Shown: piece by piece, positions 14,805 to 42,708 of the stretch
How positions within the stretch are numbered: the first letter of the stretch is position 1
Layout of the letters: each line of letters begins with the position of its first letter
Source of the DNA: Clostridia bacterium
GTDB taxonomy: Bacteria > Bacillota > Clostridia > UBA1212 > UBA1255
Assembly (NCBI GenBank): GCA_017935905.1
Contig: JAGBGO010000044.1
Location: 1 to 51,959 of the forward strand
Direction: 5' to 3'
DNA: 51,959 nt
Program-made: the position numbers and the translations under genes
The notes under the pieces: generated by a model
What the model was told of the DNA's origin: nothing
Seen by the model: the letters and a program-made list of their open reading frames with translations, nothing else
The model's database searches: none

Positions 14805-14970
14805 CCCGGGTACAAAGTACCGTTTTTGCGGGTTACGTACCCGAATATGAAGTGAAATCAGAAGGATTTTGTGCTGTTTTGGGTACAAATCCTTCTTTTT
14901 TACTACAATGTACCCGGAAAAGACAAAAAAGTCGGGTACAAACGGACTGTTTTACGCCATTTGTACCCGA
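14805..14970. repeat. Alternating inverted-repeat array A (core GGGTACAAA)
   Basis: Six copies of the core in strict F-R-F-R-F-R order: F near 14806, R near 14837, F at 14881, R near 14910, F at 14933, R near 14960. They form three adjacent hairpins between two convergent genes. The third (14933-14969) is a 13-pair stem with one mismatch and is flanked by an A-run, so it terminates the minus-strand gene. The second overlaps a plus-strand terminator (AGAAGGATTT..AAATCCTTCT then T6 at 14895). AAGTGAAATCAG at 14850 recurs in the spacer at 26620. Confidence 0.8.
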
Positions 14971-14992
14971 GACGTGCAAATCTTATACTTTC

Positions 14993-16141
14993 TTACAACA
15001 AAGACTCATACAAAGCGGTAATATCCGCAACGCTGGTCTCTTTGGGGTTGCCGGGACGGCAAGCGTCGTCGTAAGCAGACTGAGCAAGGAAAGGAATATC
15101 CTCTTTCTTTACAATGTCCTTCAAATCTGCAGGAATGCCGACGTCCAAAGACAACTGTTTAACTGCGTCGATGGCGGCTTTGCGATACTGGGCTTGCGTC
15201 ATATTCTCTACGCCGGAAACGCCCATGGCTTGTGCGATATATTTATATTTATCGCCGGTCGCCTCTGCGTTGTACTCCATAACCGTGGGCAGGATGATGG
15301 CGTTGGCAATGCCGTGGGGTGTATCATACAATGCACCAAGAGGGTGTGCCATAGAGTGTACGATACCAAGACCTACGTTAGAAAAGCCCATACCGGCTAC
15401 GTACTGACCCAGTGCCATGCCTTCACGACCTTCCGGTGTACCGGCTACGGCGCCGCGCAAGGAACGGGCAATAATTTCAATGGATTTTAAGTGGAACATA
15501 TCGGAAAGTTCCCAAGCGCCGGCCGTGATATAGCCTTCAATGGCGTGGGTCAGGGCGTCCATACCGGTTGCAGCCGTTAAGCCTTTGGGCATGGTGCTCA
15601 TCATATCCGGATCCACAAAAGCCACTACGGGAATGTCGTGGGGATCTACGCAAACCATTTTACGGTTCTTCTCTACGTCTGTGATTACATAGTTAATGGT
15701 AACTTCTGCTGCGGTGCCCGCTGTGGTGGGGACTGCGAAAATGGGCACGCACTTTTGCTTGGTATCGGCTACGCCCTCTAAACTTCTTACGTCTGCAAAA
15801 TCCGGGTTGGTAATGATAATACCCACCGCTTTTGCTGTATCCATAGAGGAACCGCCGCCAATGGCGATAATATAATCTGCGCCGGATGCTTTAAAAGCAG
15901 CTACGCCGTTCTGCACGTTCTCAATGGTGGGGTTGGGCTTAATATCGGAGTAAACGTCATAAGAAAGCCCTGCGCCGTCCAATACGTCCAGCACTTTCTT
16001 GGTGACGCCGAAACGGATCAAATCCGGGTCGGAGCATACGAATGCTTTCTTGAAGCCTCTTGCCTTTGCCTCTGTCTCAATGGCCTGGATTGCACCTGCA
16101 CCGTGATAGGAGGTCTCGTTCAGAATAAATCTGTTTGCCAT
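14993..16141 (-). CDS. fucO: Lactaldehyde reductase / iron-type alcohol dehydrogenase
   Basis: A 382-residue group III iron-dependent alcohol dehydrogenase. It begins MANRFILNETSYHG and shares long stretches with E. coli FucO, including IAIGGGSSMDTAKA (NAD binding), TTAGTAAEVTINYVITD, CVDPHDIP, the metal motif DALTHAIEGYI and HSMAHPLGALYDTPHG. It reduces L-lactaldehyde to 1,2-propanediol in fucose or rhamnose fermentation, or acts on related diols. The start ATG at 16141 follows AAGGAG by ten bases; an in-frame TTG three codons upstream is too close to the RBS. It is monocistronic, divergent from the glycerol-1-phosphate dehydrogenase. No fucose genes are nearby, so the physiological substrate is uncertain. 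Confidence 0.92.
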   Translation of the reverse strand: MANRFILNETSYHGAGAIQAIETEAKARGFKKAFVCSDPDLIRFGVTKKVLDVLDGAGLSYDVYSDIKPNPTIENVQNGVAAFKASGADYIIAIGGGSSMDTAKAVGIIITNPDFADVRSLEGVADTKQKCVPIFAVPTTAGTAAEVTINYVITDVEKNRKMVCVDPHDIPVVAFVDPDMMSTMPKGLTAATGMDALTHAIEGYITAGAWELSDMFHLKSIEIIARSLRGAVAGTPEGREGMALGQYVAGMGFSNVGLGIVHSMAHPLGALYDTPHGIANAIILPTVMEYNAEATGDKYKYIAQAMGVSGVENMTQAQYRKAAIDAVKQLSLDVGIPADLKDIVKKEDIPFLAQSAYDDACRPGNPKETSVADITALYESLL

Positions 16142-16166
16142 GGTTCTCAAACTCCTTTATATAGAA

Positions 16167-16195
16167 TTTATATAGTAATTATTATGGTATCACAA
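16167..16195 (-). promoter_or_regulatory. fucO promoter
   Basis: On the minus strand: TTGTGA (16195-16190), 17 bases, TATAAA (16172-16167), ahead of AAGGAG. Confidence 0.7.
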
Positions 16196-16221
16196 TTGGA
16201 AAATACCGTCAACTTCGTCCA

Positions 16222-16250
16222 TTGTAAAATGCTCGGAAATTCGCTATAAT
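16222..16250 (+). promoter_or_regulatory. Promoter of the glycerol-1-phosphate dehydrogenase gene
   Basis: TTGTAA (16222-16227), 17 bases, TATAAT (16245-16250), followed by the RBS AAAGGAAG. Confidence 0.8.
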
Positions 16251-16283
16251 TAGCATGCATTAAATGTAAAGGAAGTATGCAAT

Positions 16284-17561
16284 ATGAATTTAGAAAAAAT
16301 CGTAGCGTCATTGAATCCTTGTCCCTGTGGACGGACGCATACCTTTGATACCAAAGTGGTGGAAATCGGAAGCGGGATCACCGTTCGGACAGGCGATATT
16401 TTACGGGAAGCCGGCTTTCAAGACCGGATTTTGCTGGTGGCAGACCGCAATACGTTGCGTGCCGCAGATGGGGTACTGGAAAGTCTTACCAATGCCCATT
16501 TTACCGTAAAACAGTTGATCTACGAGGATTTGAAAAGCGCGTGTGTTGAGCAAGTGCGTGAAATTGAGGCATTGTGCGCCGATGTGGACGGTGTGATTTC
16601 CGTGGGCACCGGCTCGCTGAATGACGTTTGCCGCGTAGCAGCCTACGAAATGAAGAAACTGCTTTGCATTTTCGCTACCGCACCTTCTATGGACGGCTTT
16701 GCTTCCGATACGGCACCGATTATTGAGAATAATTTTAAGTCTTCCTGGCAGGCGGCACAGCCCGCGGTGATTATTGGCGATACCAAGATTTTGGTGAAGG
16801 CACCGGCTATTTTAAAGTCTTCCGGTTTTGGCGATATGATGGCCAAATACATCGGTCTTGTGGATTGGAAGATTGCTCATTTGCTCATTGATGAATATTA
16901 TTGTGAGAATGTGGCCGCCATTACCCAAGAGGCAACGGATCGGATTGCAAGTCTTGCGGACCGCATTTTAGAAGACAGTGAAGAAGCGGCCGGCGCAGTG
17001 ATGGAGGCTTTGATTATGACCGGTCTTGCTATGAAGCTTGCGGGTTGTTCCCGTCCTGCCAGCGGTGCTGAACACGTAGTTTCCCATTATTTGGAATGCC
17101 ATAAAGTGATTCAAGGTATTTGGCCGGATTACCACGGCCGGAAAGTAGGCGTGGCGACGGTTTACTGCAATCGCTTGTACCGAAATTTAGCGGAGCGCCT
17201 GGAAGAAATTCACTGTACTAAGGATACAACGGATTGGGATGCGGTTTATGCCCATTATGATGAGAAGATGCATGCAGACGTAAAGCGATTAAATACACCT
17301 ACGATTACGGATTTAGTAGATCCTGCGAAGTTAGAGGCGGCTTGGCCGGAAATTCGGAAGATTATTTTTGAAACGTTGCCTACGCAAGAAAAATTGCTGG
17401 ATTTGATGCACACCGCAGGCGCCCCCGTAGAGCCTTCGGAGGTTCACGTCAGTGATGCATTTATGATGGATGCGATGCAGTATCACGGATACATGCGATA
17501 TCGTTTGCTTCTGACAAGGTTGCTGCCGATGATGGGGATTAAGATGGAAGATTATTTGTGA
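16284..17561 (+). CDS. egsA: sn-glycerol-1-phosphate dehydrogenase (AraM/EgsA family)
   Basis: A 425-residue NAD(P)- and metal-dependent dehydrogenase reducing dihydroxyacetone phosphate to sn-glycerol-1-phosphate. The start CPCGRTH, GVISVGTGSLNDVCR (nucleotide binding), PSMDGFASDTAP and the metal-binding region GAEHVVSHYLE plus a later WPDYHGRKVG are characteristic. B. subtilis AraM/EgsA is the reference; there the product feeds heptaprenylglyceryl phosphate lipid. No lipid-ether gene is adjacent, so the fate of the product here is open. Length is typical. It is monocistronic with a good promoter and is followed by array B. Confidence 0.88.
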   Translation: MNLEKIVASLNPCPCGRTHTFDTKVVEIGSGITVRTGDILREAGFQDRILLVADRNTLRAADGVLESLTNAHFTVKQLIYEDLKSACVEQVREIEALCADVDGVISVGTGSLNDVCRVAAYEMKKLLCIFATAPSMDGFASDTAPIIENNFKSSWQAAQPAVIIGDTKILVKAPAILKSSGFGDMMAKYIGLVDWKIAHLLIDEYYCENVAAITQEATDRIASLADRILEDSEEAAGAVMEALIMTGLAMKLAGCSRPASGAEHVVSHYLECHKVIQGIWPDYHGRKVGVATVYCNRLYRNLAERLEEIHCTKDTTDWDAVYAHYDEKMHADVKRLNTPTITDLVDPAKLEAAWPEIRKIIFETLPTQEKLLDLMHTAGAPVEPSEVHVSDAFMMDAMQYHGYMRYRLLLTRLLPMMGIKMEDYL

Positions 17562-17573
17562 GAGACCGGGCGG

Positions 17574-17758
17574 TTTGGGCGTAAAACGGTTGTTTGGTTG
17601 TAAAAAGCCCAACCATTGGGTATAAACGTGATTTTTTTGTTATACATACCCAAAAACCGGAGATTTTCATAAAAATTAGATGGTTTTTTTAGTTTGAACT
17701 ACAAAATTTTGGGCATAAGGAGCATTTTTTATCTCCCTATGCCCAAAGTGTTTTTTAA
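17574..17758. repeat. Alternating inverted-repeat array B (core TTGGGYATAA)
   Basis: Six copies in F-R-F-R-F-R order: F 17574, R 17607, F 17616, R 17639, F 17707, R 17738. They make three hairpins. The last (17707-17747) pairs TTTTGGGCATAAGGAG with CTCCCTATGCCCAAAG, with one mismatch; it has T6 on the right and A4 on the left and so is a bidirectional terminator. The architecture matches array A although the core differs. It lies between convergent genes. Confidence 0.8.
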
Positions 17759-17762
17759 AAGA

Positions 17763-18824
17763 TTATTCTGCCGTATCGGCTGTTTCCTCAGCTTTCTTTC
17801 TCCGTCTCGGTGCCCGTTTCTTGGGCTTCGGCGCCTCTTCTTTCGCAGCTTCTTCCGGAACTACTTCCGCGGTCGCAACTTCTGCCGGTGCCGCCGCTTC
17901 TTTCTTCTTTCTGGGCGCGGAGCGTTTTCTTGCCGGCTTCTTTACAGGTTCTTCTTCCTTCGGTGTATCCGGCTCAGACGGGACTAGCGTAACCGTAACC
18001 GGCATAGCCGTTCGCTCCGCCTCGCTTAACCGAAAGGCAAACTCGCCGTTTCGCACTTCTTTATGTTCGCAGAATCCTAAAGATAAGAAGTAGGTAGACC
18101 AAATTTTTCTTTTCCCCGCAAACAAGGGCAGATCGCTATAGTCCCGAATGTCTAAATCCGGATGTTTCGCCTTTAACTGGTTCACCAAACTGCTGCCGCC
18201 AATCCATTCTTCATCACCTGTGCGGCTTGCCAGGATCTCTTTAATCTCACTGCGCAAAGCCCGGTCGCTTAAAGTATCGGCACCCTGAGTCTCCGCAGGG
18301 ACTTCCGCCGATTCGACAGGCGCTTCCTGAACGGTTTTCTTCACGGTCAGCCGGCGGGTTCTCTTAATCTCTCGCTTGGCATCGGCGGTCTTCCGGGACT
18401 CGCAAAGCACCATAAACAGCGTGCAGGCAGTTCTGAAAGAAGCGGGGGCAATATCGTCGCCCATGCCGATGACGCACATACCGCTCTCTCGCAGGCGCAG
18501 GGCAAGGCGGGTAAAATCGCTGTCGTTTGACACAATACAGAACCCGTCCACATCGCCCTTATACAAAATATCCATCGCATCAATTACCATGGTAATATCT
18601 GTGGCGTTCTTGCCGTTTATGTAGCTGAACTGCTGCACCGGTGTTAAAGCGTATTTTAATAATTTCTCTTTCAAAGAATTTCGGTTGTATTCAGCCCAGT
18701 TGCCGTAAATGCGGCGATAGGTAGCGATACCGAATTTTCCGATTTCATCAAATATTTTCTCAAAACGGTCCGGAGACACGTTGTCTGCATCAATCAAAAC
18801 TGCAAATCTTTTCTCGTTTGTCAT
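17763..18824 (-). CDS. NYN-domain / OST-HTH (LOTUS) RNA-associated protein
   Basis: A 353-residue protein. Residues 5-145 form a NYN (LabA/DUF88) PIN-like nuclease domain: AVLIDADNVSP, a conserved YRRIYGNW, ATDITMVIDAMD and VSNDSDFTRLALRLRE, with the acidic residues expected at a metal site. Residues about 185-265 resemble an OST-HTH/LOTUS RNA-binding domain (LRSEIKEIL..GSSLVNQLKAKHPDL). The last 60 residues are a Lys/Ala/Pro-rich tail (KKRAPRRRKK), histone H1-like and probably nucleic-acid binding. Bacterial NYN-LOTUS proteins are known but mostly uncharacterised; RNA cleavage or decay is the usual proposal. The RBS AAGGAGG precedes the ATG. Confidence 0.88.
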   Translation of the reverse strand: MTNEKRFAVLIDADNVSPDRFEKIFDEIGKFGIATYRRIYGNWAEYNRNSLKEKLLKYALTPVQQFSYINGKNATDITMVIDAMDILYKGDVDGFCIVSNDSDFTRLALRLRESGMCVIGMGDDIAPASFRTACTLFMVLCESRKTADAKREIKRTRRLTVKKTVQEAPVESAEVPAETQGADTLSDRALRSEIKEILASRTGDEEWIGGSSLVNQLKAKHPDLDIRDYSDLPLFAGKRKIWSTYFLSLGFCEHKEVRNGEFAFRLSEAERTAMPVTVTLVPSEPDTPKEEEPVKKPARKRSAPRKKKEAAAPAEVATAEVVPEEAAKEEAPKPKKRAPRRRKKAEETADTAE

Positions 18825-18861
18825 TGAATTCCTCCTTGCTTCTATGTAAAATACCGCATCT

Positions 18862-18891
18862 ATTATACCATAAAATCGGCGCGGGGCACAA
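18862..18891 (-). promoter_or_regulatory. Promoter of the NYN gene
   Basis: Minus strand TTGTGC (18891-18886), 18 bases, TATAAT (18867-18862). Confidence 0.7.
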
Positions 18892-18904
18892 CCTTGTTTC
18901 CCAC

Positions 18905-18933
18905 TTGCATTTTACCCCAAATACTGGCATAAT
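18905..18933 (+). promoter_or_regulatory. pyk promoter
   Basis: TTGCAT (18905-18910), 17 bases, CATAAT (18928-18933). A copy of the octamer ATTTTACC lies just inside the spacer. Confidence 0.75.
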
Positions 18934-18962
18934 GAGAGGCGTTTGAAAGGAATGATGACGGA

Positions 18963-20375
18963 ATGAGAAAAACGAAGATTATTTGTACCATTGGTCCCGC
19001 AAGCTCGGATGAAGCCACGTTAGAGCAGTTGTGTCGTGCCGGCATGAACGTTGCCAGATTGAATTTTTCCCATGGAACCCATGAAGAACATAAAGTCCGT
19101 ATGGATCACATTAAAGCCGTTCGCACCCGTTTGGGCCTTCCCATTGCCATTATGTTGGACACCAAGGGCCCGGAATACCGAATCGGCTGTTTCAAAGAAG
19201 GAAAAGCCTGTTTACAGGAAGGCAAGTATTTTACCTTTACACCCGACGATATTGAAGGGGACGATACCCGTGTGTCGGTGAGCTACAAGCATTTGGCAGA
19301 AGACCTGTCCATCGGGGACAAAGTGCTGGTGAACAACGGTCTGCTCATTTTTGAAGTCGTAGAAATTCAAGGGGGCGACGTAGTTTGCCGTATCTTGGCA
19401 GGGGGCGAAATCTCCAACCGGAAGAGTATGAGCTTCCCAAATAAAGTACTGAAACAGATTTATTTAAGCGAGCAGGACAAGAAGGACATTGCCTTTGGTG
19501 TTGCCCAGGAAGTGGACTTTATTGCTTGTTCCTTCGTATCTTGCGCCCAAGATCTGCTGGACGTGAAAGCCTTTTTAAAGGAATGCGGCGGCGAAGATAT
19601 CAGTTTAATCGCCAAGATTGAGAATCGCTCCGGCATTGATAACATTGAATCCATTTGTGAAGAATGCGACGGCATTATGATCGGTCGCGGAGATATGGGC
19701 GTAGAAATTCCTTTCGAGGAATTGCCGGTGATTCAAAAGAAACTAATTACAAAATGCCGTATGCTAGGTAAACGCGTGATTACCGCAACGGAAATGTTGG
19801 AGTCTATGATTTATAATCCCAGACCTACCCGTGCGGAAATTTCCGACGTTGCCAACGCCGTTTACGACGGTACTAGCGCCATTATGCTTTCCGGTGAAAC
19901 GGCAGCAGGCAAATATCCGGTGCTTACAGTGGAAACTATGGCCAAAATTGCGGAGAAGACAGAGAAGAACATCCGCTACGAGAAGCGCTTTTTTACGTAT
20001 GACTTCCGGATTCGCAACCAATTAGACGCCATTTCCCACTCCGTTTGTAACATGTCTATTGACCTTTCTGCCAAAGCCATTGTAGTGTGCTCTTTGTCCG
20101 GCACCACGGCCCGCATGGTTTCCAGATTTCGTTCCCCGGTGGATATTATCGGCCTTTCGGTTAAAGAAAAGACGTGGCGTCAGCTTTCCCTTTCCTGGGG
20201 GGTAACGCCCCTTCTTTGCGAGGAATATCCTTCTCCGGAAGTGCTGTTCTATACGGCAAAACGCATCGCCAAAGAGGCTTTCTCCCTAAAGACCGGCGAC
20301 ACCATTATTATCACCGGCGGCAACACTACGGGAGAAACGGGAAATACCAACACCATTCGGATTGAAACAGTCTAA
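18963..20375 (+). CDS. pyk: Pyruvate kinase
   Basis: A 470-residue glycolytic enzyme converting PEP and ADP to pyruvate and ATP. Opening KTKIICTIGPAS, NFSHGTHEEH, MLDTKGPEYR, LIAKIENRSGIDN (catalytic Lys), IMIGRGDMGVEIP (metal Glu/Asp) and TATEMLESM followed by RPTRAEISDVANAV are all present. The allosteric C-terminal domain ends at GGNTTGETGNTN; the extra PEP-utiliser domain of Bacillus-type enzymes is absent, giving the short form. The ATG follows GAAAGGAATGATGACGG. It precedes a TetR/ABC operon that has its own promoter, so co-transcription is not needed. Confidence 0.96.
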   Translation: MRKTKIICTIGPASSDEATLEQLCRAGMNVARLNFSHGTHEEHKVRMDHIKAVRTRLGLPIAIMLDTKGPEYRIGCFKEGKACLQEGKYFTFTPDDIEGDDTRVSVSYKHLAEDLSIGDKVLVNNGLLIFEVVEIQGGDVVCRILAGGEISNRKSMSFPNKVLKQIYLSEQDKKDIAFGVAQEVDFIACSFVSCAQDLLDVKAFLKECGGEDISLIAKIENRSGIDNIESICEECDGIMIGRGDMGVEIPFEELPVIQKKLITKCRMLGKRVITATEMLESMIYNPRPTRAEISDVANAVYDGTSAIMLSGETAAGKYPVLTVETMAKIAEKTEKNIRYEKRFFTYDFRIRNQLDAISHSVCNMSIDLSAKAIVVCSLSGTTARMVSRFRSPVDIIGLSVKEKTWRQLSLSWGVTPLLCEEYPSPEVLFYTAKRIAKEAFSLKTGDTIIITGGNTTGETGNTNTIRIETV

Positions 20376-20406
20376 GAATTGACACAGAATGATAACATAC
20401 TTTTCA

Positions 20407-20435
20407 TTGACAAACTAATACCGTTAGTTTAGAAT
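20407..20435 (+). promoter_or_regulatory. Promoter with embedded TetR-type operator
   Basis: TTGACA (20407-20412), 17 bases, TAGAAT (20430-20435). The spacer is filled by a perfect inverted repeat: AAACTAA (20412-20418), TACCG, TTAGTTT (20424-20430). A dimeric repressor bound here would block RNA polymerase. The obvious candidate is the TetR-like protein encoded next. Confidence 0.85.
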
Positions 20436-20468
20436 GAGCCTGTTATTCTTTATGGAGGAGGACCGGCT

Positions 20469-21050
20469 TTGGGAAAAGGTTTATCCAGAGAGGTTATCGT
20501 AGAAGCTGCCGCAGAGGCGGTACGTAAGAATCCTTTTCAGCAGATTTCCGTAAACGAATTGGCCCGCACCTTAGGTGTGAAGCCGGCTTCGCTGTACAAT
20601 CATATCGCTTCTGCGGAGGATATTCGCACAGAAGTGGGGCTGTACGCGGCCGGAAAGCTCATTCGGGAGACGGGGGAAGCGGTGTCCGGTAAAATGCCTG
20701 AAGATGCTTTGATGTCATTTGCCAAAGCCTACAGAGCCTATGAACGGGACAATCCGGGTCTGTATTTCTACATCATTCATTTACATGATGCCGAGGATTC
20801 CAGATTGCGGGAAGCGGCTGCGGCCATTATCCAGCCCATTATTGAAATCCTGTCCACCTAAGGCTTAACGCCGCCTCAATGCTGCCACTGGCAACGGGTA
20901 TTTCGCAGTATGATGCACGGCTTTATTGTGCAGCAGCGTCACGGATATTTTACCACCCAACCGGAAAGCAGCGATCAATCTTATGAAATTGGAATTCAGT
21001 GTGTCATTGACGGTATTAAGGCCGCGGCACAAGAGAGCGAGGGAAGATAA
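20469..21050 (+). pseudogene. TetR/AcrR-family regulator interrupted by in-frame TAA
   Basis: A TTG start seven bases after GGAGGAGG opens a TetR protein. The N-terminal HTH is intact (ISVNELARTLGVKPASLYNHIAS). TAA at 20859-20861 (codon 131) ends the ORF at 130 residues. The same frame continues without another stop to TAA at 21048-21050 and encodes convincing TetR C-terminal sequence (HWQRVFRSMMHGFIVQQ, then GYFTTQ). The full product would be 193 residues. A single base change restores it, most simply from a Tyr codon. Truncated protein would keep the DNA-binding domain but lose much of the dimer/ligand domain, so the downstream exporter may be derepressed. A sequencing or assembly error is the alternative. 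Confidence 0.85.
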
Positions 21051-26119: not shown

Positions 26120-26545
26120 ATGATGATATCAACCAAAGGAAGATACTTATTGCGTGTCATGTTGGACTTGGCGGAATGGCAAGCCGATCATTTAGTGCCT
26201 ATGAAAGAAATAGCAGAGCATCAAGGGTTGTCCCTTAAATATTTGGAGCGGATTATGCCGGTACTTACTAAACACGGCTTAGTAGAAGGTACACACGGCA
26301 AAGGCGGCGGCTATCGCCTGACCCGCACGCCGGAGCAATATAGCGTAGGCGAGATCCTTCGTCTTGCAGAAGGGGAGTTGGCGCCCATTGCCTGCCCCGA
26401 ATGTGGCGGAGAGCATTGTAAGAGAGCGAAAGAATGTTACACCCTTCCTATGTGGCTTCAATTTCACCATTTAGTGAATGATTATTTTAACGGTATTACC
26501 CTGGCAGATTTACTGGACGGCAATCTATCCAACACTTCACTTTAA
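26120..26545 (+). CDS. Rrf2-family transcriptional regulator
   Basis: A 141-residue protein. The winged helix covers residues 1-75 (STKGRYLLRVMLDLAE, MKEIAEHQGLSLKYLERIM, GKGGGYRL). Residues about 93-107 hold four cysteines (CPECGGEHCKRAKEC) in the region where IscR, NsrR and RsrR bind an iron-sulfur cluster; the spacing is not identical to IscR. It may sense Fe-S status, nitric oxide or redox. Divergent from the MATE gene, with a palindrome in the shared spacer. ATG at 26123 is an equally possible start. Confidence 0.88.
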   Translation: MMISTKGRYLLRVMLDLAEWQADHLVPMKEIAEHQGLSLKYLERIMPVLTKHGLVEGTHGKGGGYRLTRTPEQYSVGEILRLAEGELAPIACPECGGEHCKRAKECYTLPMWLQFHHLVNDYFNGITLADLLDGNLSNTSL

Positions 26546-26591
26546 ATTTCAAAATCTTTCAATAAAAATGAAGGTTTTTCAAAAATCATCA

Positions 26592-26674
26592 TTCCAAAAC
26601 AACAAAACAGTCGAAATAAAGTGAAATCAGCCCATTTTTACAGGCTGAGTTCACTTTATTTGTTGATTTTGGAA
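26592..26674. repeat. Large nested palindrome between convergent genes (spacer D)
   Basis: AAATAAAGTGAAATCAGCC (26614-26632) pairs with 26643-26661 with one mismatch. An outer pair (TTCCAAAA at 26592, TTTTGGAA at 26667) extends the structure. A further reverse copy of the core, TTCACTTTA, lies at the end of the Rrf2 gene (26535-26543). A weaker hairpin (26551-26580) ending in TTTTT precedes it. It probably terminates both genes and may be a simpler relative of arrays A, B, C and E. Confidence 0.7.
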
Positions 26675-26714
26675 AGAAAAAATGAAAGCCTTTGCCAAAC
26701 CGGACAAGCCGTCT

Positions 26715-28821: not shown

Positions 28822-29098
28822 GTTAAATGCGTTTGAGCAGGAACCAGTAAGTTTCAAACGGAACCTGGAGAGAGTTGCCGGTCGGTGCGAGGCAATGGGT
28901 AAGGGAAACTGTATTCATCCTGTGAGATGTGTACTGAACGAGGTGACTCAAGTAGGATACAACGGGTGTTCCCGTCATAGAACAAGCGTGTTGATAGACA
29001 CGCACAAGGCTGTTTTCGTGAGAAGACAGCGAATAGAGGTGGTACCACGGGAATTCTCGTCCTCTGTATTCCAAGCAAGAATACAGAGGACTTTTTTG
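28822..29098 (+). ncRNA. T-box leader (compatible with tRNA-Phe)
   Basis: Stem I contains AGAGAG (28869-28874) and the distal GCCGGTCGGTGCGAGGC. The T-box is GAGGTGGTACCACGGG (29036-29051), whose TGGT would pair with an ACCA acceptor end, i.e. discriminator A. The terminator follows: GTCCTCTGTATTC pairing with GAATACAGAGGAC, then TTTTTT (29059-29098). A TTC at 28914-28916 (TATTCATCC context) sits where a specifier is plausible and is shared in position with the leader at 33.5-33.8 kb, suggesting Phe. Phe is inferred; CGA after TGAA at 28939 is a competing reading. Confidence 0.9.
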
Positions 29099-31003: not shown

Positions 31004-31155
31004 GGAGGTAAATCGTAAAATATTGCATTTTACCTCCAACTTTTTACCGGATTTACTGGAATTGCGTGAGGTGGAATGGTAAAAAGCCGCAAAAACCTCC
31101 CGATCTGCTCAAAAAATGGGAGGTAATTCCCGGATTTCGGTGAATTACCTCCCAT
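31004..31155. repeat. Alternating inverted-repeat array C (core GGAGGTAAWT)
   Basis: GGAGGTAAAT F at 31004, R (ATTTTACCTCC) at 31027; CTTTTTACC at 31040 pairs with GGTAAAAAG at 31078; CCTCCC R at 31095; TGGGAGGTAATTC F at 31117; its perfect 13-base complement at 31142-31154. The final hairpin is preceded by AAAAAA and so terminates the minus-strand gene. The overall plan is like arrays A and B, with a less regular middle. Confidence 0.75.
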
Positions 31156-33822: not shown

Positions 33823-33828
33823 AGACGT

Positions 33829-35659: not shown

Positions 35660-35660
35660 T

Positions 35661-36530
35661 TTAGAAAGAGCGTCGGTAGGACAAGGGCGTGGAGCCTTTC
35701 AGTTGTTTGAAAACTTTAATGAAATAAGATACGTTATTGAACCCGCAGTCGAAGGCTACGTCCATAATACTTTTGTTGGTGGAAAGCAGCATTCGCTCCG
35801 CTTGATTGACGCGGACAAAGTTCAGGTATTCCTTGAAACTCTTACCGGTAATGGCTTTGAAGCTACGGGAAAAATAACTGTAACTGACGTTCAGCGCGGT
35901 ACAACATTTTTGCGCATCAATCTCTTCTCCATAATGGTGGTTGATATAGTAAATGGTTTTGTAAATACGGGCGGTATTCTCTCCGCTTCCCCGCAAACCT
36001 TCGGGTTCTTCTTCGTTCTGGAAAATGTCTCGCAGAATTTCCAGCACGATTTGGATACCGCCGATCTTTAAAGATAAATCTCTGCAAGGGTCGCTGCTGG
36101 TGAAGAGATTGATTTGCTTCTCGAAGGCCTCCCGAATGGGGGAGTTTTCTAATTCCTCCCGCGTCCAATGGCATTTGCCGCCTTCTAAAACAAGGCGAAG
36201 CAAATATTCGGCGGCTCTGTCTTTGGAGGCCAACTCATACAGTACGGAGGGCTTAATCATCAGGACGTAATAGCGATTCCAATCCGTTTCCCGGGATACG
36301 ATTTTGTGCACGGTGTTGGAGCGAAACAACATTAAATCCCCTTGCTTCACCAAATAATGTTGCTCATTGATATAGAAATCGTGATTGCCGGCAGTGACGT
36401 AAATCATCTCCACCGCTTCGTGCAGGTGACTATGGGTTGCCACACTAAACCGAGGAACCCCGTGCAGAAAGAAGGCGGTGCCATTTTCCGCCAATTGCGC
36501 ATTTTCCTGTTCTATAAAATAGTTGTCCAT
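35661..36530 (-). CDS. AraC-family regulator
   Basis: A 289-residue protein. An N-terminal cupin (residues about 25-95, HSHLHEAVEMIYVTAG, QGDLMLFRSNTVH) binds the effector, probably a sugar. Two C-terminal HTHs (residues about 190-285) end in GFNNVSYFIKVFKQLKGSTPLSYR, the AraC signature. The start at 36530 is set by GGAGGAG; the longer ORF lacks an RBS. It stands between two GH99-like genes and is divergent from the exported one. Direct repeats of TAGCAAA in that spacer are the likely binding sites. It probably activates the glycan locus. Confidence 0.93.
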   Translation of the reverse strand: MDNYFIEQENAQLAENGTAFFLHGVPRFSVATHSHLHEAVEMIYVTAGNHDFYINEQHYLVKQGDLMLFRSNTVHKIVSRETDWNRYYVLMIKPSVLYELASKDRAAEYLLRLVLEGGKCHWTREELENSPIREAFEKQINLFTSSDPCRDLSLKIGGIQIVLEILRDIFQNEEEPEGLRGSGENTARIYKTIYYINHHYGEEIDAQKCCTALNVSYSYFSRSFKAITGKSFKEYLNFVRVNQAERMLLSTNKSIMDVAFDCGFNNVSYFIKVFKQLKGSTPLSYRRSF

Positions 36531-36555
36531 CTCGGAAACTCCTCCTGCTACAGAA

Positions 36556-36597
36556 TAGCAAATTTTTTGCATTTCATAGCAAAATTATTGTAGCATA
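36556..36597. promoter_or_regulatory. Candidate AraC operator (TAGCAAA direct repeats)
   Basis: TAGCAAA at 36556-36562 and 36577-36583 are 21 bases apart, two helical turns, the usual half-site spacing for AraC-type proteins. A partial third copy, TAGCATA, is at 36591. They lie between the divergent araC-like and GH99-like genes. Confidence 0.7.
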
Positions 36598-36650
36598 GTT
36601 TCGGGTAAAATGGTACTATTATTTTATCTTGAAGAAATGAGGCTGAGTGA

Positions 36651-38702
36651 ATGAAACGTTTTCTATCTTTAGTTGTATTTTTTTGTATATGTTTGACGTG
36701 CTGTATCCCCGGCTTGAATGATACGAAGGCCAATGCGGCAAACGTAGACCCTCACGAGTTTACGCTTACGCACTTGACGGCAACCGATGCGGTAGGCAGA
36801 ACGCTACCGGCTATTTCCGGTTACAAAACGGACAAGGACGTAGGTGTTTTCTATTTCCTGTGGCACGGTCAGCACGTAAGCAAGAACAACGGCGGCGATA
36901 CAGTGCGCAACGTAACGGAACTGCTCAAAACGAATTACAACGATTTATTTGATAAAGATCCGGAGAACAGCGTGGTGCCCAAAGATGCATGGTTGCACGT
37001 AAACGAGCCTCTGTACGGATATTACAACAGTACGGACGAGTGGGTTATGCGCAAGCATATTGAACTGTTTATCGCAGCCGGTGTGGATTTCGTAATGTTT
37101 GATTTTACCAACGGTTACGCTTATATCCAACCTTTATATAATTTCTTGGATTTGCTATTGGAATACAAGGCTGCCGGTTGGGACGTACCGGAGGTCTCCT
37201 TTTATTTGTGGGTCAAAGGCAACAACATTATTAAGCAACATTTGATGAAGAAAGTATATACCAATGAAAAGTACAAAGATTTGGTCTATTCTGCCGACGG
37301 CAAGAAACCCTTGATCGTGGCATCGCTGGAGCTGGATGGACAGCAGTTGGGTCAAAAGTTGGATCAGCAATACTTAGACTATTTTGACGTGCGCCAATCT
37401 GCCGTTATGTACAGTAAAGATCACGATGTTTTGTGGCCTTACTGGCAGTTTAAGCGGGACTGGAAAGTTTACAAGGATATGGTGAACGTTTCCGGCGCTC
37501 AAGCACAGGCGGCCTTTAGTTTTGCCTATGAGTGTGCACCGGGATACACCGGAGAAGTCCACGGAAGGGGATGGTCTTCATCGAATCCTAAGAATGGCGA
37601 CGTGCAGGCGATTCTTCGGGGAGACAACATTCAGGAAGGCTGGGACAATGCCATTGCAAAAGATCCGGACATTGTGTTCGTTTGCGGCTGGAATGAGTGG
37701 GTGGTACAAAAGGCCTTTTTACCCGACGGATTCCCCCATTATACCGACAATTTCTCCGTGGAATTTTCCCGGGATATAGAAATGTTGAAATCTGCTACCT
37801 ATGTATCTGACGGCAAAGGTGGCTACAAAGAAGAAGGTTTCGGTGATAACTATTACTTGCAGCTTGCCTACAATATCCGTCGTTTTAAGGGGATTGCGGC
37901 AACCAAGAATGATTACCCGGACAAAGTATCCATTGATATTCAAGGGGATCTTGCCCAGTGGAACAAAGTAAAGGAAACGTATTTGGCGCTTTCCACCAAT
38001 AAAGAAGCCCGGGATGCTAAAGGTTTCTATTTGGGCACCACTTACAAGCAGGCGGCACCGGACAACGTGATTGAGAACGTACAAGTGGCGTACGATGATC
38101 ACAACGTATATTTTAAGATTACGGCCACGGATACGATTACAAAATATAAGAAAGGCGCTTCCAACTGGATGAATTTGTACGTTGGAGTAGAGGGTTCTGA
38201 CAAAGCCGCATGGTCTACTTTTAACTACGTGATTAACCGCAGCCCCGACGGAAACGGAAAGACGACGGTGGAGCATTTTACCAAGAACGGTGCCTACACG
38301 TTGGCAAAATCGGGAGAGGCGTCCTACAGTTTAAGCGGCAAAGTGCTTCAAATTGCCGTGCCCAGAAGTGTGTTGGGCATTACAAAAGATGCTTTCAACC
38401 TTACGTTTAAGGTTGCAGACGGCGTGAAAGACACAGACAATATTTTGGATTATTACGTAACCGGTGACGTATTCCCCGTAGGTCGCTATGCGTATACGTA
38501 TCAAACGACGTATTCAGCATCTGCCCCCATGCCTACGAATCCGCCGAGTACCCAAACACAGGCGCCTGCGCAAACGCCTGACTGCGATGCCGAGAATGAT
38601 AACGGTCTTGTGATTGGTGTTGTTGCAGGTGGCGCAGTTATCATAGTGGCTGCTGTGGTTGTTATTCTGGTGGTTTGCTTCAAGAAAAAGAAAGAGGACT
38701 AA
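36651..38702 (+). CDS. GH99-like glycoside hydrolase, surface-anchored form
   Basis: A 683-residue protein with a signal peptide (residues 1-27), the same barrel and beta-sandwich domains as the enzyme at 33971-35659 (very similar throughout, including DAWLHVNEPLYGYYNS and VCGWNEWVVQK), then a Thr/Pro/Gln linker (APMPTNPPSTQTQAP) and a C-terminal membrane helix with KKKKED tail. The C-terminal anchor keeps the enzyme on the cell surface; it is not an LPXTG motif. It is divergent from araC. The pair suggests partial digestion outside followed by completion inside. Confidence 0.82.
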   Translation: MKRFLSLVVFFCICLTCCIPGLNDTKANAANVDPHEFTLTHLTATDAVGRTLPAISGYKTDKDVGVFYFLWHGQHVSKNNGGDTVRNVTELLKTNYNDLFDKDPENSVVPKDAWLHVNEPLYGYYNSTDEWVMRKHIELFIAAGVDFVMFDFTNGYAYIQPLYNFLDLLLEYKAAGWDVPEVSFYLWVKGNNIIKQHLMKKVYTNEKYKDLVYSADGKKPLIVASLELDGQQLGQKLDQQYLDYFDVRQSAVMYSKDHDVLWPYWQFKRDWKVYKDMVNVSGAQAQAAFSFAYECAPGYTGEVHGRGWSSSNPKNGDVQAILRGDNIQEGWDNAIAKDPDIVFVCGWNEWVVQKAFLPDGFPHYTDNFSVEFSRDIEMLKSATYVSDGKGGYKEEGFGDNYYLQLAYNIRRFKGIAATKNDYPDKVSIDIQGDLAQWNKVKETYLALSTNKEARDAKGFYLGTTYKQAAPDNVIENVQVAYDDHNVYFKITATDTITKYKKGASNWMNLYVGVEGSDKAAWSTFNYVINRSPDGNGKTTVEHFTKNGAYTLAKSGEASYSLSGKVLQIAVPRSVLGITKDAFNLTFKVADGVKDTDNILDYYVTGDVFPVGRYAYTYQTTYSASAPMPTNPPSTQTQAPAQTPDCDAENDNGLVIGVVAGGAVIIVAAVVVILVVCFKKKKED

Positions 38703-38706
38703 TTTT

Positions 38707-39939
38707 ATGCAACAATATATTGACGCCATTCGAGGGTATTCCGCAAAGAACTATGGTAAAATGGTTCGGGAACCCAAAGGGTATTTGAAATATCCATTTA
38801 TTGTGCCGGGGAGCGAAAGTTACGGCCATTGTTTGTGGGACTGGGACAGTTGGCTGACCGATATTGCGGTTCGGCAGATTATGCTGGACAACGGGGTGGA
38901 AGATGAATATTTTACCCGTAGCGAGAAGGGCTGTGTCTTGAATTTCCTGGAATTGATGGAAGAAGACGGAAGAACCATGATTGTGGCGCTTCCGGACCGG
39001 GTTGAACTGTTTGATGAAGGGGGCAATATTCATAAGCCTTGCCTCGTTCAACATGCGGCGTTCATTACCCAAGTTCACGGGGAAGATGCACAGTGGCTTC
39101 GCCCCTATATAGAGAAGTTCGACCGATTCTTGGGGTACTATATGCAGCATTGTCGCCACGAAGCTACCGGCTTATATTTTTGGCTGAACGATACGGCCAT
39201 TGGGGTAGACAATGACCCTTGTACCTTCTATCGACCTTTCGGCAGTTCTGCATCTATTTATTTGAACTGTTTGATGTACAAAGAGTTGCTGGCGATGGTG
39301 TATTTGTGCAATCTTTTACACCTTCCGGCGGCGAAATACCAAGGGGAAGCGGATGCCCTCAAAAAGGCAATCCAAACCCATTTGTGGGATGAACGGGACG
39401 GATTCTATTACAGTGCGGACTTGAATTTGCTGCCGGTGGATCCGGATCAAATTCTGCATTCCGGCGCCCCCAGACACTGGCACTGCTTAATTCAGCGCAT
39501 TGATGTTTGGTCCGGCTTTATGGCCATGTGGGCAGGGATTGCCACGAAGGAGCAGGCGGCCAGAATGGTGGCCCGCATGGAGGATCCGAACACGTTCCGA
39601 AGCTCTTATGGTATTCGGTCTTTGTCTAAAATGGAAGCTATGTACAATCCCATTAAGAGCGGCAATCCTTCTTGCTGGCTGGGACCCATTTGGGGTATCG
39701 GCAACTGGATGTGTTTCGTTGGTTTGCTGAATTACGGCTATGAGGCAGAGGCTAAGAAATTGTGCGAGGATACAATCGGTCTCTTTGGTCGGGATATTTT
39801 GGCTTGCGGGGAGATGCACGAATATTACCACCCGGATACGGGAGAGGGTCAGAATAATCAAGGTTTCCAAAGCTGGAATTTCTTAGTCAACAATATGATT
39901 GCTTGGTACGAGGGAAAGAATTTCGTGCAGGGATTCTAA
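38707..39939 (+). CDS. GH63-like (alpha/alpha)6-barrel glycosidase
   Basis: A 410-residue cytosolic enzyme. GHCLWDWDSWLTDIAV near residue 38, SGNPSCWLGPIWGIGNW near 320 and EYYHPDTGEG with NQGFQSWNFL near 380 are the conserved clusters of GH63 (YgjK, mannosylglycerate hydrolase) and trehalase-like enzymes, with Asp as acid and Glu as base. It begins five bases after the surface GH99 gene, so they are co-transcribed, and probably trims the imported oligosaccharide from its non-reducing end. The RBS is AGAGGAC. The longer ORF from 38659 overlaps the previous gene and lacks an RBS. Confidence 0.85.
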   Translation: MQQYIDAIRGYSAKNYGKMVREPKGYLKYPFIVPGSESYGHCLWDWDSWLTDIAVRQIMLDNGVEDEYFTRSEKGCVLNFLELMEEDGRTMIVALPDRVELFDEGGNIHKPCLVQHAAFITQVHGEDAQWLRPYIEKFDRFLGYYMQHCRHEATGLYFWLNDTAIGVDNDPCTFYRPFGSSASIYLNCLMYKELLAMVYLCNLLHLPAAKYQGEADALKKAIQTHLWDERDGFYYSADLNLLPVDPDQILHSGAPRHWHCLIQRIDVWSGFMAMWAGIATKEQAARMVARMEDPNTFRSSYGIRSLSKMEAMYNPIKSGNPSCWLGPIWGIGNWMCFVGLLNYGYEAEAKKLCEDTIGLFGRDILACGEMHEYYHPDTGEGQNNQGFQSWNFLVNNMIAWYEGKNFVQGF

Positions 39940-39996
39940 AAAAAGTCAGTTTAATATTTGTCTACTTTTCACATATAATTTGACTGGTATTCTAAC

Positions 39997-40028
39997 ACGC
40001 TGTGTGATACAATAAGTACATACAGCGT
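39997..40028 (+). promoter_or_regulatory. Inverted repeat around a -10 box
   Basis: ACGCTGT (39997-40003) and ACAGCGT (40022-40028) flank TACAAT (40008-40013) upstream of the second GH99-like pair. A TTGACT lies at 39980 but at 22 bases it is too far for a normal -35. The arrangement suggests a repressor operator over a regulated promoter; RNA hairpin is the alternative. Confidence 0.55.
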
Positions 40029-40080
40029 ATTTTGATTGAATATCAACATATTATGAAGAGAAAGCGAGGCTCTGTTTTCT

Positions 40081-41064
40081 ATGGAGAATCAGGCAGCAAT
40101 TGCAAAGAAACGAGAGAAAACTCAAATCGGTATTTGGTACAGTACCTGGTACAATTTGGGCGAGAATAATTTCTGGGAGCATGGTGGAAATAACCAGGCG
40201 GTTTACTACAGACCTTTGTTAAAGGATGGCAAGTCTTTTGGCATTTACGATTCCTTAGACCGGGAGCAGACCAATTTCCATTTGAAGGCCATTGCGGACG
40301 CGCAGATTGATTTTATTATTATGGATCAGACCAATCTGGTGGATAATCCTTTCGGTGGCGGCTGTATTAACAAGGCTTCTATTGATACCGCAAAGGCTGT
40401 GCGGGAATGGAATTTAGCAGGCAATCGTCGGATTCGTTACTGTTCCGGTATCGGTGCTTTTGGTACCAAAGAGGATATGGGTCACATTGAATCCGAAGCA
40501 AAACTTCTGTGGGAACGCTACTGCGAGCAAGCGTGGGGTACAGAAGACGACCACGTATACATTGACGGCAAGCCGTTGTTTGTCATCTTTAACTGCCTTT
40601 TTACCGAAGCAGAATGGAGAGAATACCAAGCGACCCACGACACCCCTTACTGTGACCGTTTCACCATCCGATGCTCTACCGGTCACGTATATAAAGGTAC
40701 ATACGGTCAGTGGGGTTGGGTGATGCCCGACGGTCCGCAAATTGATGAGGACGTAGCGGTGATGATGCCGGGATGGTATAAGTTCCATTTTACCCTGCCC
40801 TTCGTATTCCGTGAGCGTGGCAATTCCTACCGGAACAGTTGGAAGACGTTGCTGGCATCGGAGATTACACCCAATTACGTTGTTATTAACTCCTTTAATG
40901 AGTATGCGGAGCACACGGCGGTGTTTACGGCTTCCACCCATGAGTTTCCGGAGGATTATCCCATTGAGGGATGGATTGATGAGGACGGTAAGCCGGCACC
41001 TTCTCTTTACTGGGATATTACGAAAGAATATATTGCCAAGTTTAAGCATGGCGACGTAGAATAA
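40081..41064 (+). CDS. Second GH99-like hydrolase, cytosolic form
   Basis: A 327-residue single-domain barrel protein without signal peptide: IGIWYSTWY (first strand), DFIIMDQTNLVDN, IRYCSGIGAFGTKEDMGH, PLFVIFN, and VINSFNEYAEHTAVF, which resembles the SFNEWxEGT catalytic segment of GH99. It differs clearly from the family at 33971. The next gene encodes its exported paralogue. Probably endo-acting on a mannan or similar glycan; substrate unknown. Confidence 0.75.
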   Translation: MENQAAIAKKREKTQIGIWYSTWYNLGENNFWEHGGNNQAVYYRPLLKDGKSFGIYDSLDREQTNFHLKAIADAQIDFIIMDQTNLVDNPFGGGCINKASIDTAKAVREWNLAGNRRIRYCSGIGAFGTKEDMGHIESEAKLLWERYCEQAWGTEDDHVYIDGKPLFVIFNCLFTEAEWREYQATHDTPYCDRFTIRCSTGHVYKGTYGQWGWVMPDGPQIDEDVAVMMPGWYKFHFTLPFVFRERGNSYRNSWKTLLASEITPNYVVINSFNEYAEHTAVFTASTHEFPEDYPIEGWIDEDGKPAPSLYWDITKEYIAKFKHGDVE

Positions 41065-41084
41065 AGAAAGTGGGGATCGAAAGT

Positions 41085-42380
41085 ATGAAATCTATTTTTG
41101 TTCGACATTTAAGCTTATTGTTGGTTTTCATGATGGCTGTGGGCATGTTTGTGGGCTGCGGCGGTGGCGACGGGGAAACGAAAACGTCTCCTACTATAGA
41201 AGCCAGCGAAGCACCCAACGCTACAGAACCGGCAAGTAGCGGGAACGCTACATCAAAGCCGGTAGCCACCAAGAAACCTACGTCCGGTACCACACAGAAG
41301 CCTACGCAGAAGCCTTCTGCATCGGCTACTGCGAAACCGACGGCAAAGCCGACCGCGACCCCGGTGGATAATTCTTACGGCGGCCAGCGAAAGAGTGCAC
41401 AAATTGGTATTTGGTATGCTGTTTGGTACGATAAGACCACAGAGGGTTCTTTCTGGGATACCAGCGGTCGTTATTCTTCTACCTATGCCGGTGATCCGAT
41501 TTACTACAGACCGCTTCTTCCGAATGGTACGTACGGTAAATATACCTCGCTAGATAGCACGGTGATTAACTTCCATTTGCAACAAATTGCAGATGCACAA
41601 ATTGATTTCATTATTATGGATCAGACCAATAATATTGATAACGGTATGTTGAATGCGGCGTCTATTAAGACGGCAAAAGCCATTCAAAATTGGAACAAGG
41701 TAGAGGGCAACCGAAAGATTCGTTACTGTTCCGGCATTGGCGCGTACGCAACTAAAGACAATATGGCCCACATTGAGTCCGAGGCTAAGAAGTTGGTGGA
41801 TCGGTATATCGACGTAAAGAGTGGCTTGGGTTCTGCAGAAAATCACGTATACGTAAACGGAAAGCCTTTGTTGATTATCTATAACGACTATTTTACCGAA
41901 GCCGAGTGGAAGTCTTACCAGAAGAGCCACAGTACGCCTTATGCAGACCGTTTCACCATTCGCTTTGCGAAAGGTCACGTACGCAGCGGTCAGAAAGGTT
42001 TCTGGGGGTGGGTAATGCCTGACGGTCCTCAGATTAACGCGGACGTTGCTGTCATGATGCCCGGCTGGTACAAGATCAGACGCGAAGGCGAAGGCTTCGG
42101 CGGTGCAAATCTTCCTTACGTATACCGGAATCGCGGTAAGTTCTATGAAGACGGCTGGAAGAAATTGTTGAAGTCCGATATTGTTCCGGATTTCGTTGTT
42201 ATTAACTCTTTCAATGAATATGCGGAGCACACGGCCGTGTTTACGGCAAAGACGGATTTGTTCCCGGCTAACTACGGCATTGAGCGTTGGCTGGATTCCA
42301 GTGGCAAAGAGAATCCTTCTCTTTACTGGGATTTGACGAAGAAGTACATTGCAAAGTTTAAGAAGGGCGATCGTGCTTAA
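41085..42380 (+). CDS. Second GH99-like hydrolase, lipoprotein form
   Basis: A 431-residue lipoprotein. A signal peptide with lipobox (GMFVGC, Cys about 23) is followed by a long Thr/Lys/Pro linker (KPTSGTTQKPTQKP to residue about 95) and then the same barrel as the preceding protein: IGIWYAVWY, DFIIMDQTNNIDN, IRYCSGIGAYATKDNMAH, VINSFNEYAEHTAVF. The ATG at 41085 was chosen from the lipoprotein signal; RBS GGGGAT. It lies 20 bases after the cytosolic paralogue. A strong terminator follows. The cytosol/surface pairing repeats the pattern at 33971 and 36651. Confidence 0.8.
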   Translation: MKSIFVRHLSLLLVFMMAVGMFVGCGGGDGETKTSPTIEASEAPNATEPASSGNATSKPVATKKPTSGTTQKPTQKPSASATAKPTAKPTATPVDNSYGGQRKSAQIGIWYAVWYDKTTEGSFWDTSGRYSSTYAGDPIYYRPLLPNGTYGKYTSLDSTVINFHLQQIADAQIDFIIMDQTNNIDNGMLNAASIKTAKAIQNWNKVEGNRKIRYCSGIGAYATKDNMAHIESEAKKLVDRYIDVKSGLGSAENHVYVNGKPLLIIYNDYFTEAEWKSYQKSHSTPYADRFTIRFAKGHVRSGQKGFWGWVMPDGPQINADVAVMMPGWYKIRREGEGFGGANLPYVYRNRGKFYEDGWKKLLKSDIVPDFVVINSFNEYAEHTAVFTAKTDLFPANYGIERWLDSSGKENPSLYWDLTKKYIAKFKKGDRA

Positions 42381-42405
42381 AGCTTTAGGATTGTGTATGA
42401 CGATG

Positions 42406-42438
42406 GGGCTGCCAAGTAAGAGGCAGCCCCAATTTTTT
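42406..42438 (+). terminator. Terminator of second GH99-like operon
   Basis: GGGGCTGCC (42406-42414) pairs perfectly with GGCAGCCCC (42423-42431), followed by AATTTTTT. Confidence 0.95.
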
Positions 42439-42499
42439 GGGATACGTTTCATCTATATCTAAATTTTTGTGCTGTGTTGTTATTGCGGTCATCACGGAA

Positions 42500-42708
42500 C
42501 AGGTCGTGGAGTGCATTTTTTGATGTTTCACAACCTAATGGCGGTCGAAAATAATTCAAAATAAGTGATTTACGACCCGATGAATTGGCGTTTTTTCTTT
42601 ATAAACAGATATTTCAGGTCGCAAATCTTTGATTTTGTTACATTCGTGACCTATTTGCTGTAGAAACAGGTTGTGAAACATAGGTTTTGGTGTTTTTGCG
42701 ACCTGTTG
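42500..42708. repeat. Alternating inverted-repeat array E (core CAGGTCGYRAA)
   Basis: Eight copies in F-R-F-R-F-R-F-R order: F 42501, R 42530, F 42544, R 42573, F 42616, R 42645, F 42668, R 42698. They form four short hairpins in a row. Pairing is imperfect within several hairpins (AGGTCGTG with CACAACCT, ACAGGTTG with CGACCTGT). No copy is needed for termination of the plus-strand gene, which already has the terminator at 42406. The spacer between the convergent genes is 372 bases and otherwise empty. Confidence 0.8.

Follow-up and report, generated by a model that had tools for sequence, protein, structure and literature searches.

The 51,959-nucleotide contig JAGBGO010000044.1 of a Clostridia bacterium, analysed here at its full length and referred to as the window, carries four arrays of inverted repeats in intergenic spacers, labelled A, B, C and E. 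Each array is a row of dyads, a dyad consisting of a half-site of ~9 bases, ~17 bases of AT-rich DNA that often hold a central T/A tract, and the half-site in reverse. As detailed below, dyads within an array lie close to whole helical turns apart, arrays with the same cores are dispersed over the genome, and genes of a paralogous family of ~260-amino-acid proteins, which we name PAP (phased-array proteins), tend to stand next to arrays of matching core. The four arrays are:

14808-14968, plus strand: array A, three dyads (14808-14842, 14881-14915, 14934-14968) with six half-sites, core GGGTACA(AA); dyad-to-dyad distances 73 and 53 bp
17577-17744, minus strand: array B, three dyads (17711-17744, 17618-17651, 17577-17610) with six half-sites, core TTGGGYATA/TTGGGCGTA; dyad-to-dyad distances 93 and 41 bp
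31004-31152, plus strand: array C, three dyads (31004-31037, 31068-31099, 31119-31152), core GGAGGTAAWT; dyad-to-dyad distances 63 and 52 bp
42502-42703, plus strand: array E, four dyads (42502-42535, 42543-42577, 42617-42651, 42669-42703) with eight half-sites, core AGGTCGYRAA; dyad-to-dyad distances 41, 74 and 52 bp

Direct reading confirmed all four arrays at the places and with the cores that an earlier note on this DNA had given, each of them (4/4) between convergent genes. Array C itself stood, but its count did not: there are six clear half-sites rather than "about seven" copies. By eye, the central T/A tract lends the dyads a direction, which is the same in all three dyads of A and mostly one against two in B.

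Arrays exceed chance and are dispersed over the genome

The window belongs to a draft metagenome assembly that is 92% complete (G000), about a third of which was read directly (the 30% sample); all genomes of the bacterium's family, including that of a sister species (G001), are draft metagenome assemblies, and genes were called by a simple longest-open-reading-frame rule. Arrays were searched for with a detector that calls an array where two adjacent dyads have their core in common, at a score of at least 44 for the comparison with shuffled sequence and of at least 43 for a later count; an earlier, stricter k-mer detector had missed most arrays and was replaced. At the higher threshold, 423,017 bases of G000 (window included) contained 17 arrays, among them A, B and C, as compared to none in 846,034 dinucleotide-shuffled bases. 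The earlier note had held out chance as an explanation should shuffled sequence yield equal numbers, and these counts do not bear it out. Array E fell below the score of 44 because its half-sites vary (CAGGTCGYRAA).

The cores had further been described as specific to their loci, and the arrays as products of local duplication and homogenisation. The former is incorrect and the latter is not supported, as identical core and spacing recur at distant loci. A DNA search with array A returned six other dispersed copies at 74-81% identity, and three further G000 loci hold near-complete copies of array E (85-91% identity, E 3e-74 to 1e-67), alongside several partial ones. While a plain DNA search with array B itself gave no close copy, a covariance model built from ten members placed type B above 90 bits at 16 places in G000 (window B included) and at four in G001; across the remaining 29 genomes of the order, no score of this model exceeded 26 bits. 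Tandem growth does occur in arrays of other genera. An unbiased scan added the cores GGACACA, GTATGTAAA, TTTGGTAC, GGGCGCTGGGAG, GGAATG and GCATCC. Separately, E-type copies on short contigs (L012, L013, L014, L016) were seen embedded in another repeated stretch, GGGGCTGTCTC ... GAGACAGCCCC, possibly a second repeat in its own right, either mobile or acting as a terminator.

With respect to genomic position, 35 arrays outside the window's own fell into 15 convergent, 15 co-directional and 4 divergent gaps, plus one without an assigned gap type, while the background of gaps of at least 150 bp comprised 20 convergent, 39 co-directional and 27 divergent ones. Convergent gaps are enriched for arrays and divergent gaps are rare, yet arrays are not restricted to convergent spacers as had been proposed, given the 15/35 in co-directional and 4/35 in divergent gaps. 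Arrays often begin a few bases past a stop codon. The 20 array-flanking genes examined have ordinary functions, none of them recurrent (IspD, an IleRS-like synthetase, FolD, DapB and MnmA are among them).

Dyads are spaced by whole helical turns

Nine members of the A family align over 161 bp without an indel, save for one member with one additional base, although the identity of 0.84 within the cores drops to a mean of 0.48 outside them; members with 34-76% noncore identity keep the exact spacing. Dyads span 33-35 bp, and the linkers in A, B and E measure 8, 18-19, 30, 39-40, 51 or 59-60 bp. Overall, dyad-to-dyad distances amount to 41-42, 52-53, 63-64, 73-74, 85 and 92-93 bp, which is close to whole helical turns. 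Fitting 22 distinct distances from 11 core families over a range of 8-14 bp identified a best period of 10.55-10.7 bp (R 0.78; 0/20,000 random sets); these distances were collected by hand, and the Rayleigh value with one distance per family is only ~0.003. A second genus of the bacterium's family, reached via one covariance hit, harbours arrays with the core GGCACACAAA, in which every dyad found spans 34 bp, periods are 63-64, 73-75, 85, 106 and 148 bp, and loci differ by whole turns. Whole-turn spacing combined with conserved half-sites suggests that protein binds the arrays as double-stranded DNA, along a single face of the helix.

One could suppose instead that the arrays are no more than products of tandem-repeat slippage or decayed miniature inverted-repeat transposable elements (MITEs) of ordinary transposons, whose spacing was inherited from a single ancestor, and some arrays in other genera are indeed near-perfect tandem repeats. 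We consider this quite improbable, since exact spacing survives at the noncore identities given above, non-homologous core families have whole-turn spacing in common, and loci differ from one another by at least one whole turn.

Pairing between half-sites is not selected

The earlier note had viewed the arrays as rows of hairpins, possibly acting as a 3'-end RNA element. Across 74 dyads in 23 arrays, however, a half-site matches its own partner at 7.04 of 9 positions and half-sites from the array's remaining dyads at 7.06 of 9 (permutation p = 0.68), so this view is not supported. Mismatches of the G-T/T-G type (42) and the A-C/C-A type (35) are similar in number, as for DNA and not for one RNA strand. 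Each half-site resembles an independent copy of a recognition sequence. Inspection of the half-sites together with two outer bases in the 23 arrays revealed no constant GTAG or CGTC tag, and an Rfam search of the window returned no family at the arrays.

These data also bear on a reading of the arrays as bidirectional terminators in a row or as RNA hairpins at 3' ends. Their frequent location right after a stop codon, the enrichment of convergent gaps and a T run behind some dyads would all agree with such a role. With own-partner pairing unselected, the two mismatch types similarly frequent, the spacing free of indels across unpaired linkers, arrays present in divergent gaps as well and no Rfam family at the arrays, we regard it as very unlikely.

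PAP genes tend to stand beside arrays of matching core

Within the 30% sample of G000, only one pair of paralogs lacking a Pfam match adjoins arrays: a 277-amino-acid protein, whose gene sits between two B arrays of nearly identical sequence (L059), and a 257-amino-acid protein encoded 69 bp from a GCATCC array (L149), the two being 39% identical. A profile of this pair retrieved the PAP family: seven full genes and a fragment in G000, seven genes and two partial matches in G001, 14 matches spread over six g4 genomes (g4 being a further genus), and weak, partial matches in genera g2 and g3.

Three of the window's arrays have a counterpart at a PAP gene elsewhere in the genome. Upstream of the gene on contig C12 lie three GGGTACA dyads 53 and 73 bp apart, which reproduces the core and spacing of array A in reversed order; upstream of the C62 gene, GGAGGTA/GGAGGTT half-sites 52 and 63 bp apart do the same for array C. 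The C83 gene is flanked on both sides by TTGGGCA arrays with the 93 and 41 bp spacing of array B, whose core is a variant of that of the C83-flanking array (TTGGGCAAT). Furthermore, the C35 gene adjoins a GCATCC array and one C38 gene has a GGAATG array downstream.

At the score of at least 43, the 30% sample holds 22 arrays with two to four dyads each. Sixteen of them carry the core of one of six PAP-gene or fragment families, four of these 16 being the gene-side arrays themselves. An array within 400 bp upstream was detected at 14/27 PAP loci and at 19/418 other genes (the latter including two PAP genes in the sample; Fisher p 8.5e-11), and five more of the 27 loci have an array solely downstream. 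Position, core match and recurrence single out PAP as the probable array protein; judged from these sequence relationships, it is quite likely that PAP binds the arrays.

Two observations on individual PAP loci may be added. Beside an intact GTATGTAAA array (L051:497-629) lies an open PAP remnant of 65 amino acids (C71:258-416), the sister-species counterpart of which (L368) is a full gene with an array reading GGTAG. In addition, the palindrome TTTCCCGGGAAA, or a one-base variant of it, precedes the start codon of 9/27 PAP genes by ~15-70 bp (for example at L340, L361, L367, L354, L373, L366 and L369), eight more are preceded by single or paired GGGAAAT elements, and 10 have neither; palindrome and GGGAAAT are possibly a shared operator of the whole PAP family.

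A candidate nuclease-like domain at the PAP C-terminus

The 26 aligned PAPs have R-S-K-x-E, Y-E, P-D-F-T and W in common, and E-H-x-G is nearly invariant; RSKxE, YE, PDFT and E-H-x-G conform to the PD-(D/E)XK sequence signature or a variant of it, with the third-motif lysine missing from its customary position. While 0/26 PAPs match Pfam, 26/26 match PADLOC PDC-S68 in its C-terminal part and 15/26 match HEAT_CxxC_PDDEXK. Searches with PAP against PDB sequences, NCBIfam and PHROGs returned no credible match. A homologous domain, modelled on eight helicase-end homologs from phage-type contigs, reached a pLDDT (predicted local distance difference test) of 76.7 and displayed a PD-(D/E)XK-like order of elements; its best fold matches were TnsA (Z 8.2) and I-Bth0305I (Z 8.1), with many restriction-type nucleases scoring lower. 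Two points count against this assignment: the fold was modelled on helicase homologs rather than on a PAP, and a Foldseek search with the domain model gave no match at 0.001 or better (best E 1.4e-3). On balance, there is moderate support for the PAP C-terminus being a PD-(D/E)XK-like domain.

The phage-type contigs mentioned above (L380-L387) encode long proteins (~750-1330 amino acids) with an ATPase-like GPAGTGKT stretch that end in the nuclease-like domain of PAP. All eight viral-contig loci matching the PAP alignment encode such long proteins ending in the domain; neither the alignment search nor two single-protein queries detected short PAP relatives in viral contigs, and phage and plasmid records contained only partial matches (3 and 7 records, respectively).

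The identity of this protein also speaks to whether the arrays are genuine repetitive extragenic palindromic (REP) sequences or bacterial interspersed mosaic elements (BIMEs) moved by a Y1 (HUH) REP-associated tyrosine transposase (RAYT). That system would be expected to show palindromic units of ~35 bp that are scattered outside genes and joined by linkers of defined length, together with a gene that has its repeats on its flanks, and such features are seen here. We rate it as extremely improbable here, as no Y1_Tnp (PF01797) protein was detected in G000, which is 92% complete, by a search that was positive in 5/14 control genomes; the half-sites have no GTAG or CGTC head, their pairing is not selected, and the paired protein is unrelated. 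What is left of the REP/BIME-like family suggested by the earlier note is a dispersed element that has its own dedicated protein, whereas the REP transposase that it named for a check, the hairpins and the local homogenisation are not supported.

Cores change between loci and species

The stretch L048:15997-16158 is homologous to array A along its length, yet reads GGACACA instead of GGGTACA. B-type half-sites are mostly TTGGGCAAT or TTGGGCAGT at 13 loci in G000 (where the variant is also listed as TTGGGCAAT/CAGT) and mostly TTGGGCG at nine loci in G001. At the folD locus, FolD is 96% identical between the two species; the arrays there retain 49% noncore identity, the best value in its row, and have changed cores. 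The corresponding G001 value for window B is 43%, next to a second-best value of 42%.

Orthology of PAP genes between G000 and G001 was judged by eye from shared flanks. Three G001 orthologs have an array with a changed core (GGGTACA to GGACACA, GGAGGTA to GGGTATT, and TTGGGCA to GGGTAATTA) and two have an unchanged one (GCATCC, GGAATG). The N-/C-terminal identities of the PAPs are 0.55/0.79, 0.46/0.75 and 0.53/0.65 in the changed-core pairs, and 0.86/0.85 and 0.56/0.66 in the unchanged-core pairs. That the N-terminal part of PAP sets specificity we hold to be rather probable; weighing on the other side, five ortholog pairs are too few for a test and one unchanged-core pair also has a fast N-terminus (0.56 vs 0.66).

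Occurrence in other genera and families

PAP matches at 1e-20 were present in 9/118 sampled genomes of the class. The families f47, f31 and f7 provided 21 full-length PAP loci, and arrays lie no more than 600 bp away from 10 of them, every one with yet another core (6/10, 4/8 and 0/3 loci, respectively). The smallest dyad period was read at PAP loci from outside the genus; 20 were selected for having a visible array (9/13 in g4 and 11/21 in the other families), of which 18 were readable: 28, 51, 51, 52, 52, 53, 53, 53, 54, 73, 74, 74, 74, 75, 83, 83, 84 and 159 bp. Sixteen of these 18 periods lie near 5, 7 or 8 turns (51-54, 73-75 and 83-84 bp) and 159 bp corresponds to 15 turns (0/50,000 random sets).

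Samples of 20 kb taken elsewhere in the order and class (57 regions from further genomes, 982,184 bases) contained a few additional arrays or tandem repeats, namely L110, L114, L120, L321, L338 and, weakly, L315; L321 and L110 fit the dyad geometry. At L110:16267-16518 (G004) and L114:2996-3197 (G003), tandem repeats of ~73 and ~42 bp (7 and 4 turns) enclose inverted repeats with a span of ~34 bp, and these are possibly the same kind of array in two further genera. Inspected by eye, the R1 hits in G004 and G022 did not belong to this type of array. In viral contigs, dyad patterns matched 84 single-dyad stretches for the A core, two for GGCACACAA and none for E. Of the viral stretches examined, three gave a detector match: L239, with two GGTACAAC dyads, and two that are coding or repetitive.

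Other features of the window

26536-26686, no strand assigned: fifth, weaker candidate array with TTCACTTT/AAAGTGAA half-sites in a convergent gap; no partner gene was found for it, and it is not counted as certain
28823-29067: T-box leader (RF00230), the one family that the Rfam search returned for the window

A proposed gene-plus-array system

In light of the above, we think it likely that the arrays are double-stranded binding sites of PAP paralogs, constituting a gene-plus-array system with dispersed gene-less arrays. In this proposal, a PAP would join an N-terminal part that varies to a PD-(D/E)XK-like domain at the C-terminus, and each gene would tend to lie beside an array of its own core. 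The geometry suggests that a PAP dimer, or a higher form, would sit on each dyad, one subunit per half-site ~34 bp apart across the A/T tract. Since dyads are whole turns apart, neighbouring complexes would be aligned on one face of the DNA and able to touch. The gene-side array may also control the PAP gene. The complete system would then comprise an autonomous gene-plus-array unit and scattered gene-less arrays, which the nuclease domain may spread or renew.

The combination of a gene and its array with dispersed gene-less arrays resembles REP/RAYT, and spreading by the nuclease-like domain is therefore a first guess; resting on that analogy, it is a plausible idea that we place somewhat short of even chances. 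More tentative still is the full version, according to which these are self-spreading gene-plus-array systems unrelated to known transposases: PAP nucleases would cut and copy the arrays of their own core, the specificities of gene and site would change together, several "dialects" would coexist in a genome, and large nucleoprotein structures with a single face would form at ~100 chromosomal places.

Several observations weigh against the proposal as a whole. As to phasing, the families T2 and S2 are off phase with a period of 39 bp, as is the PAP locus with a period of 28 bp; in the families N and M the 34-bp span is not maintained, and some dyads are wider, at ~55-58 bp. As to the pairing of gene and array, no PAP gene with the core of array E (AGGTCGYRAA) was found, and 6/22 sample arrays have no partner gene in G000. 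Conversely, 8/27 PAP loci have no array by the detector (by eye, five of these show at least one dyad or half-site and three show none), and outside the bacterium's family the same applies to 11/21 PAP loci, 3/3 in f7 among them. Moreover, a GGGTACA array persists in G001 although the own array of the PAP ortholog there reads GGACACA. As to spreading, no pair of filled and empty insertion sites was established.

A different account would make PAP a host-owned DNA-binding protein, serving the nucleoid, loops or insulation, whose nuclease domain is dead or silent, and the arrays its fixed chromosomal sites, which do not move. Some arrays do occupy shared places in the sister species, with spacing intact despite diverged linkers (noncore identity 0.49 at folD); array neighbours are ordinary housekeeping genes, and cores change together genome-wide. 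Less easily reconciled with host ownership, and closer to the behaviour of elements that are gained and lost, are the many paralogs per genome, the remnant of a PAP gene next to an array (C71:258-416), families without a partner such as E, the presence of near-identical arrays at separate loci and the patchy occurrence in 9/118 genomes of the class. The active-site-like residues R-S-K-x-E, PD-F-T and E are also conserved. We see this account as a genuine possibility, albeit one that falls short of being probable.

Comparison with known systems

Mycobacteriophage stoperators are dispersed intergenic repressor sites in a phage genome, and site and protein change together between groups; they differ from the arrays in being single sites, with no phased dyad arrays and no nuclease-like domain. 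The res sites of gamma-delta resolvase consist of three helically phased dyads bound by a serine recombinase, with one site per transposon, whereas the arrays form many dispersed families. TnsA of Tn7 and I-Bth0305I provided the best fold matches of the domain model, but by sequence PAP is a member of neither, and no TnsB, TnsC or TnsD partners were seen by PAP genes, though no search was aimed at them. With the PDC-S68 candidate defence proteins of PADLOC, PAPs share the C-terminal domain; they differ in their length of ~260 amino acids, in having no long N-terminal part and in being paired with arrays.

To our knowledge, REP sequences long stood alone as a well-described example of palindromes that are dispersed in bacterial genomes and linked to their own protein, and in the open-licence literature we found no description of arrays such as these or of the PAP family. 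The present case would add an unrelated nuclease-like family, and in the arrays linked to it, helical position is conserved above all else. As motif types differ by paralog and species, PAPs and arrays form a natural collection of protein/site pairs for studying how DNA recognition evolves, and PAPs become candidate sequence-specific DNA-binding proteins whose sites can be read from their own genomes. The arrays likewise offer a test case for repeats as parasites versus chromosome-organising sites.

The passages on "REPtrons" in three papers portray dispersed gene-less repeats and a gene present in one copy with its repeats around it (PMC2817692, PMC8266576, PMC3733652); RAYT genes are described as always repeat-flanked on both sides. 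Measured against these accounts, the present system is alike in its short palindromic intergenic units, in alternating half-sites, in several gene-repeat pairs of different sequence per genome and in genes that lie next to their own repeats, PAP genes usually having an array on one side and the C83 gene on both. In number, 30% of G000 holds 22 arrays of two to four dyads each, extragenic by simple gene calls, and REP sequences amount to more than ~100 extragenic copies per genome. The system departs from these accounts in the enzyme, given that a RAYT is an HUH tyrosine enzyme acting on folded single strands with a GTAG tag and PAP has a PD-(D/E)XK-like domain; here, pairing is unselected, the GTAG/CGTC tag is missing and dyads keep a helical phase on double-stranded DNA. 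By analogy, PAP and its arrays look like an undescribed counterpart, of unrelated origin, to REP repeats and their transposase.

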